From assembly GCA_001805055.1 (NCBI GenBank), contig MHDZ01000058.1:2215-52464 (forward strand): DNA of 50,250 bases. The letters run 5' to 3'. How positions within the stretch are numbered: position 1 is the first letter of the stretch; every line of letters begins with the position of its first letter. Below are positions 6,528 to 18,782 of this stretch, in pieces. Both the position numbers and the translations under genes were made by a program. The stretch comes from Nitrospirae bacterium GWC2_57_13. Its GTDB lineage: Bacteria > Nitrospirota > UBA9217. The notes below the pieces were generated by a model, which did not search any database, had not been told where the DNA came from, and saw only the letters and a list, made by a program, of their open reading frames with translations.

Positions 6528-6536
6528 GTATTCCCC

Positions 6537-6683
6537 TTTTGGACCAAGGCAACCCCCGTCTCCGTCCCGCATCAATAAAGATGTATGACACGGAGCGGGG
6601 CCCGCGTCCGCTACCATTTAAGAACGGGGCGGGGCGTGTTGCCGTATTTTAAACGTCCCGATCAGATCGGGACTCGCTCCATA
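6537..6683 (-). repeat. Intergenic repeat family X, copy 1 (larE end to purD start)
   Basis: GGACCAAGGCAACCCCCGTCTCCGTCCCGCATCAATAAAGATGTATGACACGGAGCGGGGCCCGCGTCCGCTACCATTTAAGAACGGGGCGGGGCGTGTTGCCGT ... GACTCGCTCCATA. Confidence 0.92.
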
Positions 6684-14920: not shown

Positions 14921-16255
14921 CTATGAACTGCTCGTGCGGCCTTTAGCGACCTGGCCTGCACCAACGCCGCTGTCCTTCTTCAGATAGGCGCTCACACCCT
15001 TCATGGAGCAGAACTCTCCGCACATGGTGCAAACATCCGTGTCTTTCGGCATCCGGGACTCGCGCAGTTTGCGCGCCCGTTCCGGGTTGATGGACAGCTC
15101 GATCTGCCCCTTCCAGTCCAGGGCCTTGCGCCGCTTTGCCATCTCGCGGTCCCAATCCATGGCGCCCTTCACGCCCTTGGCGATGTCGGCGGCATGGGCG
15201 GCTATGCGCGACGCGATCACGCCCTCGCGCACGTCCTCGAGGTCCGGAAGCCGCAAGTGCTCCGACGGCGTGACGTAACACAGAAAATCCGCTCCCGCCG
15301 CTCCGGCAATGGCGCCGCCTATGGCCGACGTGATATGGTCGTAGCCCGGCGCAACATCGGTCACCAGGGGGCCGAGCACATAGAAGGGCGCGCCCTTGCA
15401 GAGCGCCTTCTGGATCTTCATGTTCGTCTCGACCTGATGGAGGGGAACGTGGCCCGGCCCTTCGATCATCACCTGCACGCCCGCCTCATGCGCTGCGTCG
15501 CGCAGCTCGCCCAGGATGATCAGCTCTTCGATCTGCGCGCGATCCGTGGCGTCAGCCAGGCAGCCCGGCCGCATGCCGTCGCCCAGCGAAAGCGTGAGGT
15601 CGTATTTTTTTGCAATATCGATCAGGCGGTCGTAGTGCGCGTAGAGGGGGTTCTCCTGCTCGTTCTGGATGATCCACTCCAGATGGAAGGCGCCGCCCCT
15701 GCTCACCACGTCCATGATCCTGCCCTGCCGCCGCAGACGCTCAACGCTGTCGATGGTCACGCCGCAGTGTACAGTGACGAAGTCAACGCCCTCCTCGGCC
15801 TGCTGCTCGATCACCCGAAACAGGAGCTCAGGATCCATCTGGACGATCGATTTTCCCTGTTCGACGGTCTCGACGGCAGCCTGATAGATCGGCACCGTGC
15901 CGATGGCCACCGTGGACTGCCGCATGATCTCCCTGCGAATCTCGATGATCGGCCCGCCTGTCGAAAGGTCCATCACCGCGTCAGCGCCCGCCGCCACGGC
16001 GACCTTGAGCTTTTCGATCTCGTCGGCAATGGACATCTGGTCCTTGGACGTGCCGATGTTCGCGTTGATCTTGGTGCGAAGCCCTTTCCCGATCCCAAGG
16101 GGCGTGATATTTTTGTGCGCGTTGTTCCGCGTGATGACGATGATGCCCTCAGCCACGCCGTCCCGCACGTGCTCGACGCTCACGCCTTCGGCCCGGGCGA
16201 CCGCTTCCATCTCCGCTGTAATGTTGCCCTTCCGGGCTTCGATGATCTGTGTCAT
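14921..16255 (-). CDS. thiC: Phosphomethylpyrimidine synthase
   Basis: MTQIIEARKGNITAEMEAVARAEGV; KINANIGTSKDQ; GADAVMDLSTGG; C-terminal CTMCGEFCSMKG cluster motif. Confidence 0.97.
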   Translation of the reverse strand: MTQIIEARKGNITAEMEAVARAEGVSVEHVRDGVAEGIIVITRNNAHKNITPLGIGKGLRTKINANIGTSKDQMSIADEIEKLKVAVAAGADAVMDLSTGGPIIEIRREIMRQSTVAIGTVPIYQAAVETVEQGKSIVQMDPELLFRVIEQQAEEGVDFVTVHCGVTIDSVERLRRQGRIMDVVSRGGAFHLEWIIQNEQENPLYAHYDRLIDIAKKYDLTLSLGDGMRPGCLADATDRAQIEELIILGELRDAAHEAGVQVMIEGPGHVPLHQVETNMKIQKALCKGAPFYVLGPLVTDVAPGYDHITSAIGGAIAGAAGADFLCYVTPSEHLRLPDLEDVREGVIASRIAAHAADIAKGVKGAMDWDREMAKRRKALDWKGQIELSINPERARKLRESRMPKDTDVCTMCGEFCSMKGVSAYLKKDSGVGAGQVAKGRTSSS

Positions 16256-16282: not shown

Positions 16283-16972
16283 TCAACCGACTGCGGCGCC
16301 GTCTCGCTGCTCCCGCCTTATCGCCTGCCCACTCCGGTCTATTGTTGCAAGGATGTTCTTTGCTGCTGCCGTGATATCATCGGCCGCCAGGATCGCCGAG
16401 ATCAATCCGATGCCATCGACGCCGGCGTCGATCACGGCGGAAACGTTGCTGACCGTTATTCCGCCCAAAGCAAATACCGGGATGCGAATCGCTTTCTTTA
16501 TTTCCGCTATGGGCCCCAGCCCCACAGGCGGGCCGTACTTCTTTTTTGATGGCGTTTCGAACGCAGGCCCGAAGGTTATGAAGTCCGCGCCGCGCTGTGC
16601 GGCTTCGACGGCCTCACTGAGGCTGTGGGTCGAGACGCCGATGAGCATTTTGTCGCCCACGATCCTGCGGACCGCATCCACGGGAATGCTCTCTCCGCCC
16701 AGATGCACGCCGTCGGCATCGACGGCAACCGCCACGTCAACGCGGTCGTTGATGAAAAGCCTGGCGCCGTACTCCTTCGTAATGCGCCGAAGCTCCCCGG
16801 CCAGCTTGAGCAGTTCCCTGATCGGCAGGTCCTTTTCCCGGAGCTGCACTGCCCGCACTCCGCCTTCGAGCGCGGCGCGCACAGCCTGAGGCAGGGGGAT
16901 CTTTGCCGCATGCCGGTCAGTGATGAGGTAGAGCTTGAAATCAATTGCCAAGGAAGTCTCCGCAGAGAGCAT
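16283..16972 (-). CDS. thiE: Thiamine phosphate synthase
   Basis: FKLYLITDRHA; VRAVQLREKDLPIREL; LFINDRVDVAVAVDADGVHLGGES; IGVSTHSLSEA; TFGPAFETPSKK. Confidence 0.95.
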   Translation of the reverse strand: MLSAETSLAIDFKLYLITDRHAAKIPLPQAVRAALEGGVRAVQLREKDLPIRELLKLAGELRRITKEYGARLFINDRVDVAVAVDADGVHLGGESIPVDAVRRIVGDKMLIGVSTHSLSEAVEAAQRGADFITFGPAFETPSKKKYGPPVGLGPIAEIKKAIRIPVFALGGITVSNVSAVIDAGVDGIGLISAILAADDITAAAKNILATIDRSGQAIRREQRDGAAVG

Positions 16973-17123: not shown

Positions 17124-17903
17124 TTACGCTCCGATCATCCCGTCCAGCGGACTGCTGGCCGTGGCATAGAGCTTCTTCGGTATCCGGCCCGCCTTGTAGG
17201 CAAGCCTGCCGGCAAGGACTCCGTATTTCATTGCTTCAGCCATGACAATGGGGTTCTTTGCTCCTGCAATGGCCGTGTTCAGCAGCACTGCGTCGCACCC
17301 CAGCTCCATGGCCAGGGCCACATCCGACGCTGTGCCGACGCCTGCGTCCACAATGATCGGGACCTTCACCGTCTCCAGGATGATCCTGAGGTTGTAGGGA
17401 TTTCTAATGCCGAGGCCGGACCCGATCGGCGCCGCAAGGGGCATCACGGCCGGACAGCCGATATCCATCAGCTTCTTTGCCATGATGGGATCATCGCTGG
17501 TATAGGGAAGCACGATCAGGCCCTCGCTCACGAGCACCTTTGCGGCCTCAAGGGTCGCTTCATTGTCCGGAAAGAGCGTCTTCTCATCGCCGATCACTTC
17601 GAGCTTCACGAGATTTGTGATACCCGCATCGGCCGCGAGCATGGCCGTGCGAATGGCATCCTTAGCCGTATAGCAGCCCGCCGTGTTCGGCAGGATCTTG
17701 TACTTCTTCGGATCGATATGGTCGAGCAGGTTTTCCTTGCCCTTTTCAATGATGTTCACGCGCCGCACCGCCACGGTCACCACATCGGCGCCCGAGGCCT
17801 CGATGGCCTTCCGCGTTTCCTCGAAATCCTTGTACTTGCCTGTTCCGACCCAGAGGCGGGAGTTGAACTCGATTCCTGCGATGGTCAGCTTGTCGTCAGT
17901 CAT
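17124..17903 (-). CDS. thiG: Thiazole synthase
   Basis: [96 protein letters not shown]. Confidence 0.97.
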
Positions 17904-17913
17904 GCTTTACTCC

Positions 17914-18095
17914 TTTTGGACCAAGGCAACCCCCGTCTCCGTCCCGCATCAATAAAGATGTATGACACGGAGCGGGGCCCGCGTCCGCTGCCATTTAAAA
18001 ACGGGGCGGGGCGTGTTGCCGTGCCCTTGGACCAAGGCGATCATATCGCCGTTCTTAAATTACAATTACGCCGACACGGTCGGCTCGCTCCATAG
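17914..18095 (-). repeat. Intergenic repeat family X, copy 2 (thiS 3' end to thiG start)
   Basis: Near-identical to copy 1 over about 100 bp, ending GGCTCGCTCCATA. Confidence 0.92.
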
Positions 18096-18295
18096 GCGCC
18101 CCCACCCATGAAGCTCACGATCTCCACCCTGTCCCCGTCCTGCACCTGCGCAGTCGAGTAGCCCTTTTTCCTTACCACGCTCTCGTTCAGCTCGATGGCC
18201 ACCCGCTCGGGCTGGATAGTGAGATGCTGCAGCAGGCCGAGCACGGTGATGCCGTCGGGGACTTCTTTTTTTTCACCGTTCAGCGTGATGTTCAT
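18041..18295 (-). CDS. thiS: Sulfur carrier protein ThiS with an unusual 18-residue tail after Gly-Gly
   Basis: MNITLNGEKKEVPDGITVLGLLQHLTIQPERVAIELNESVVRKKGYSTAQVQDGDRVEIVSFMGGG then AYGASRPCRRNCNLRTAI-stop. Confidence 0.9.
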   Translation of the reverse strand: MNITLNGEKKEVPDGITVLGLLQHLTIQPERVAIELNESVVRKKGYSTAQVQDGDRVEIVSFMGGGAYGASRPCRRNCNLRTAI

Positions 18296-18305
18296 CCTTC
18301 TCTTC

Positions 18306-18536
18306 CCTTGGGGACCGAGGCAACCCCCGTCTCCGTCCCGCATCAATAAAGATGTATGACACGCCCGCCCCGGATCAAACAAAAATAGGAAGCGGGTCCC
18401 GCACCTTTGCCAATAGTAGTGGACGCGGGACTCTCGAAACGGAGCCGGGGGAGCGGGGCCCGCGTCCTCTACCATTTGGAAACGGGGCGGGGCGCGTTGC
18501 CGTCAATAAACGCCGACACGGTCGGCTTGCTCCATA
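18306..18536 (-). repeat. Intergenic repeat family X, copy 3 (upstream of thiS), with internal insertion
   Basis: GACCGAGGCAACCCCCGTCTCCGTCCCGCATCAATAAAGATGTATGACAC, extra segment, then GAGCGGGGCCCGCGTCCTCTACCATTTGGAAACGGGGCGGGGCGCGTTGCCGT...GGCTTGCTCCATA. Confidence 0.9.
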
Positions 18537-18564: not shown

Positions 18565-18592
18565 GAAAGGTCTTCATTCTGCATGCATGACA

Positions 18593-18683
18593 GCCTTCCC
18601 TACGCCGGAACTACCCGGATCAGGTTCCAAGGGTCGCCCTCTCTGACAGACGGCTCTCAGCCCCATCCTGCGGGGCTCCCCCA
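18593..18683 (-). promoter_or_regulatory. TPP riboswitch (THI element)
   Basis: Minus strand GGGGGAGCCCC...GGGGCTGAGAG...GGGCGACCCTTGGAACCTGATCCGGGTAGTTCCGGCGTAGGGA matches the THI-box consensus. Confidence 0.97.
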
Positions 18684-18782
18684 GCTTATTTCCATAACTA
18701 CAGTAAAATACAGTACCTCTGGAGTGAAGTCAACGGGTTTCTCTCCCAATCAGCAATCCTGCGGGGACAGAATCGCCCAAAG

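Follow-up and report, generated by a model that had tools for sequence, protein, structure and literature searches.

A palindromic repeat encodes the C-terminal tail of ThiS in a Nitrospirota genome, and a JAMM peptidase probably removes it

The window analysed here, meaning the whole stretch of 50,250 nt from contig MHDZ01000058.1 of Nitrospirae bacterium GWC2_57_13, encodes on its minus strand a thiamine synthesis cluster in the order TPP riboswitch, thiS, thiG, a thiE-like gene and a thiC-like gene. The gene thiS adjoins thiG and lies under thiamine control. Two families of repeats are interspersed with these genes, and the features are as follows.

14921..16255, minus strand: thiC-like ORF, named by sequence resemblance
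16283..16972, minus strand: thiE-like ORF (thiamine phosphate synthase), named by sequence resemblance
17124..17903, minus strand: thiG, encoding thiazole synthase, the partner of ThiS; adjoins thiS
17912..18022, minus strand: second repeat, GGCAAC...GTTGCC, filling the gap between thiS and thiG; 98% identical to window positions 6535-6645
18028..18094, minus strand: palindromic repeat X, 67 nt, encoding 17 tail residues and the stop codon; recognized by its genome copies and its hairpin
18041..18295, minus strand: thiS ORF, 84 codons and a stop (TIGR01683, E 2.4e-22)
18044..18097, minus strand: 18-codon tail beyond Gly-Gly-Gly, predicted to be removed, judged from the sequence, the low pLDDT and the lack of conservation in relatives
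18098..18295, minus strand: ThiS core of 66 residues with a GGG end (TIGR01683 positions 1-64 of 64)
18305..18535, minus strand: more copies of repeat X and of GGCAAC...GTTGCC, between riboswitch and thiS
18579..18692, minus strand: TPP riboswitch upstream of thiS (RF00059, 70.4 bits)

The minus-strand translation of thiS reads MNITLNGEKK...VEIVSFMGGG-AYGASRPCRRNCNLRTAI-stop, starting from an ATG at 18295-18293 that is preceded by AGAAGG, running through the codons of the three glycines at 18106-18098 and ending in a TGA at 18043-18041. An earlier note on this DNA had described a ThiS with an 18-residue tail past its Gly-Gly terminus, and the frame is indeed as it was read there: the encoded C-terminus is not exactly Gly-Gly but GGG followed by 18 residues. 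Residues 3-66 matched the thiS equivalog model TIGR01683 over its full length with 79 bits (cut-off 37.45), and this model sets no requirement for a stop at Gly-Gly. Structure was predicted from an alignment of 40 sequences: the core had a mean pLDDT of 88-94 per 10-residue block up to residue 60, while residues 65-84 were mostly below 50 and disorder was predicted from about residue 65. The closest solved structure to the core was the ThiS entry 2k5p/3cwi. This entry shows a K after GGG (chain position 70) and may be a capped carrier itself or tagged. A profile search with PF02597 found no second thiS in this genome, which is 95.7% complete; the other two matches were a CysO/SAMP1-like carrier and MoaD, which leaves the earlier suggestion of another ThiS without support. 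Between the ThiS cores of this genome (G000) and of the sister genus G002, both of which are tailed, pN was 0.135 and pS 0.745 (saturated), and the core therefore appears to be under purifying selection.

Repeat X at thiS is a complete 67-nt palindrome (18094-18028) that folds into one long hairpin (-29.5 kcal/mol, fold z -4.4). It supplies 17 of the 18 tail residues as well as the thiS stop codon, and the proposal that the repeat encodes the tail was borne out to that extent. With three mismatches or fewer allowed, the genome contains 11 copies, against none for a reversed control pattern. A shorter pattern matched 12 times in this genome and 30 times in G002, the sister genus; three further genera of the family had 1-6 copies, and the other 56 sampled genomes had none. 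The copies surveyed include window positions 18028-18094, L012-L022 and L285-L314. Of 31 copies that were inspected, 16 are in sense orientation behind an ORF of 90 residues or more, with the repeat edge 3-5 nt past its stop codon. Repeat X is thus mainly an intergenic element abutting stop codons, and in thiS the stop codon has been captured by it. The sister genus G002 carries repeat X at the same thiS site but in another frame, where it encodes VWSEPTVSA-stop. A 253-residue ORF of G002 (L303) likewise reads through a copy of the repeat and ends in TEPTVSA. A search of plasmids with this DNA gave no match.

The earlier note had suggested searching the genome for JAMM peptidases and thiF. Two Prok-JAB (JAMM) proteins were found over cut-off, along with a single E1 of the ThiF family at the family cut-off. 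Both JAMM proteins carry the metal motif HxHx7SxxD, as HSHPSGPAYPSGID and HSHIDCGAYFSEMD. One of them is encoded on contig C9, where a cluster of homoserine dehydrogenase, TusA, E1, JAMM, carrier and NIL genes places it between the single E1 and a carrier with a tail; this carrier is CysO/HcyS-like and ends in GGG-YNRRVRR. The second, on contig C69, adjoins a cysteine synthase gene. No JAMM gene lies beside thiS, the nearest being the one that adjoins the other carrier on C9. G002, which has a repeat-encoded ThiS tail, encodes only one JAMM copy and this is of the carrier-linked kind, which makes the C9-type JAMM the best candidate for trimming ThiS.

The comparison with other genomes covered about 200 of them overall. 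Tails of 2-23 residues without a common sequence were found on ThiS in 11 of 14 family genomes, and several of these look derived from other low-complexity repeats. Across the phylum the caps ranged from 0 to 35 residues and were mostly short, in a set that includes some ThiS-like paralogues. Other Gly-Gly carriers showed similar additions: 29 of 32 CysO/HcyS-like carriers in relatives were capped, a ThiS-like carrier was fused to cysteine synthase after GGG in two cases (L055 and L151, family f2 of the phylum), and 13 MoaD proteins from 11 family genomes were fused to MoaE directly after Gly-Gly. These 11 are the family relatives in which the protein was read; in the genome studied here MoaD and MoaE are separate, with repeat-like sequence in between (L003, 1492-1824). 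Because tails of many origins span the phylum, trimming of ThiS probably preceded the insertion of the repeat, which was then tolerated. The earlier idea that a mobile repeat had created a maturation problem thus finds no support.

To read ThiS ends, 80 named loci were collected by means of ThiG, and JAMM was scored as present at PF14464 with E <= 1e-12, a threshold set after seeing the E-values in order to drop weak matches that look RadC-like. The phylum of the window was deduced from the match of the named Nitrospira locus L185 to genomes of that phylum (L056-L058). Most Gamma- and Deltaproteobacteria among the named loci had a ThiS ending exactly in GGG; in others it was ThiG-fused or tailed. 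In this named set JAMM occurred in 15 of 18 genomes with a capped ThiS and in 13 of 32 with an uncapped one (p 0.007); within the Gammaproteobacteria the counts were 5/6 and 0/12. An even draw of 110 Pseudomonadota genomes with a requested completeness of >=90% gave JAMM in 30/30 genomes with capped and 41/80 with uncapped ThiS (Fisher p 1.8e-7), an association inflated by relatedness, since the 30 capped proteins comprise 28 ThiS-ThiG fusions and 2 tails and most of the fusions appear to represent a few clades. The association weakens when phylogeny is taken into account. A quick ThiG tree, in which clades are nested, implied 10 gains of capping, 8 of which fell on JAMM-positive backgrounds; these make up 33-40% of branches (p 0.003-0.011). 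A test on independent pairs, with only 6 supported pairs, was not significant. Within Nitrospirota a PF14464 match over the cut-off was found in 50 of 51 genomes, and owing to this near universal presence a correlation of capping with JAMM has no power there. Capped ThiS was almost never seen without JAMM; the cases are two MAGs without a JAMM match (L191 and L226) and one, L186, with weak JAB matches only. The presence of JAMM may track other carriers such as CysO or MoaD-MoaE instead of ThiS.

These observations have to be weighed against several other explanations of the tail. A sequencing or assembly error that erased the true thiS stop in the G-rich run is hardly credible, even though the junction GGTGGGGGCGCC contains a short G run and the assembly is a draft. 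Neither of the other frames stops at the thiS glycines, the +1 frame reading LWSEPTVSA-stop, and a single wrong base in the G run could alter the letters and the length of the tail but not abolish it. The earlier note had reasoned that with such an error relatives would stop right after GGG, and 10 of the 13 other family genomes are tailed, G002 having the same arrangement independently. It is also improbable that the tail inactivates ThiS and that thiazole or thiamine is obtained otherwise. By established chemistry a free C-terminal glycine is needed for the activation of ThiS, and MoaX, too, needs cleavage (PMC4326299); the core, however, is under purifying selection in the tailed lineages and undecayed in the sister genus that shares the tail, and the riboswitch, thiG, thiC and thiE are all intact. 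The inactive protein that the earlier note had considered is for these reasons disfavoured.

A replacement of ThiS by a CysO-like or MoaD carrier that serves ThiG is very improbable. Pathways can share carriers, as is known from actinobacteria, and interchangeable carriers occur in Streptomyces (PMC6006322), but here the ThiS core has stayed conserved, in a gene that adjoins thiG and is preceded by a TPP riboswitch. Less remote, although still unlikely, is the removal of the tail by a carboxypeptidase or general protease with no need for a JAMM. A tail predicted to be disordered could be degraded down to the folded core, and the two capped ThiS proteins from MAGs without JAMM match would be in line with this. 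The association of capping with JAMM argues against it, as does the internal cut that ThiS-ThiG fusions need; general proteases would presumably also rarely halt exactly at Gly-Gly.

Trimming by a JAMM peptidase is the best supported of the three possibilities raised earlier (inactive protein, another ThiS, or a trimming peptidase), with JAMMs encoded in the genome and capped ThiS almost never found without one; the inactive protein is disfavoured, and another ThiS lacks support. We therefore favour, with a probability of about 0.74, a working ThiS precursor whose tail is trimmed after Gly-Gly by a resident JAMM, so that the loss of the thiS stop would have been nearly neutral. ThiS would be made with its 18-residue tail, and a resident JAMM (Prok-JAB) metallopeptidase, most likely the one on C9 beside the E1 and the CysO/HcyS-like carrier, would cut after Gly-Gly and remove it. 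The exposed glycine would then be adenylated and thiocarboxylated by the single ThiF/MoeB-type E1 for use by ThiG. Selection on the thiS stop codon would be weak because such trimming ignores what follows Gly-Gly, and a palindromic intergenic repeat usually found directly after stop codons could in this way capture the stop of thiS. The tail is real, and it is probably harmless since it would be cut off.

The mechanism itself is known from capped carriers, which typically need a protease, as described for PtmS2 and QbsE (PMC6006322). New here are its proposed extension to the ThiS of thiamine synthesis, the spread and variability of the tails, their link to JAMM and the capture of a stop codon by a repeat. 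As cited in PMC6006322, QbsE of the thioquinolobactin pathway in Pseudomonas is also a ThiS-like carrier with residues past Gly-Gly, which the JAMM QbsD removes. QbsE, however, is dedicated to siderophore synthesis, its tail is short and fixed, and its operon includes a JAMM gene, whereas the tail described here is long, variable and repeat-encoded, on a thiamine ThiS in an operon without JAMM. PtmS2 and PtmS3 of Streptomyces platensis are likewise capped, by 1-2 residues past GG, with PtmS1 as the encoded JAMM (PMC6006322), but these very short tails belong to carriers for thioplatensimycin. In the molybdenum cofactor pathway a carrier is also freed at Gly-Gly by proteolysis before activation: DRJAMM cleaves the MoaD-MoaE fusion in Deinococcus (PMC8832034), and MoaX requires a cut between Gly82 and Ser83, made by an enzyme that was then unknown (PMC4326299); there, unlike in the ThiS studied here, the cap is a functional partner. 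Iyer et al. (2006) proposed that JAB domains could free fused ThiS or MoaD, but reported JAB genes to be absent from thiamine pathways (PMC1779556), which counts against our reading. A search of the open literature turned up no paper in which a JAMM processes ThiS for thiamine synthesis, a weak negative given that the gene name is also the word 'this'. Ubiquitin precursors and deubiquitinases offer a eukaryotic counterpart in which a C-terminal extension on a Gly-Gly protein is removed before E1 activation, although in a conjugation system. The HcyS/HcyD methionine route of Wolinella has JAMM, E1 and a capped carrier in one cluster. Its make-up resembles that of contig C9, with HcyS rather than ThiS as the substrate of the JAMM.

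At roughly even odds, the same would apply more widely, with thiamine synthesis in Nitrospirota and several Pseudomonadota depending on a JAMM that matures all Gly-Gly carriers (ThiS, CysO/HcyS-like and MoaD), the stop codon freed from selection and the C-terminus repeatedly seized by repeats or fusions. If so, many bacteria would need a bacterial relative of deubiquitinases to make vitamin B1, a link that the earlier genome survey did not draw, and the processing of ubiquitin precursors would have a parallel in prokaryotes. It would further explain how an apparently invariant protein end can be replaced by a repeat or a fusion, and it would caution against labelling a ThiS with a tail or a ThiG fusion a pseudogene. 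Fusions of ThiS to ThiG were seen in Methylococcaceae and in many Alphaproteobacteria-like genomes (L221, L226, L230, L239, L240, L316-L318 and others), and Gly-Gly-Gly was kept at the joint.
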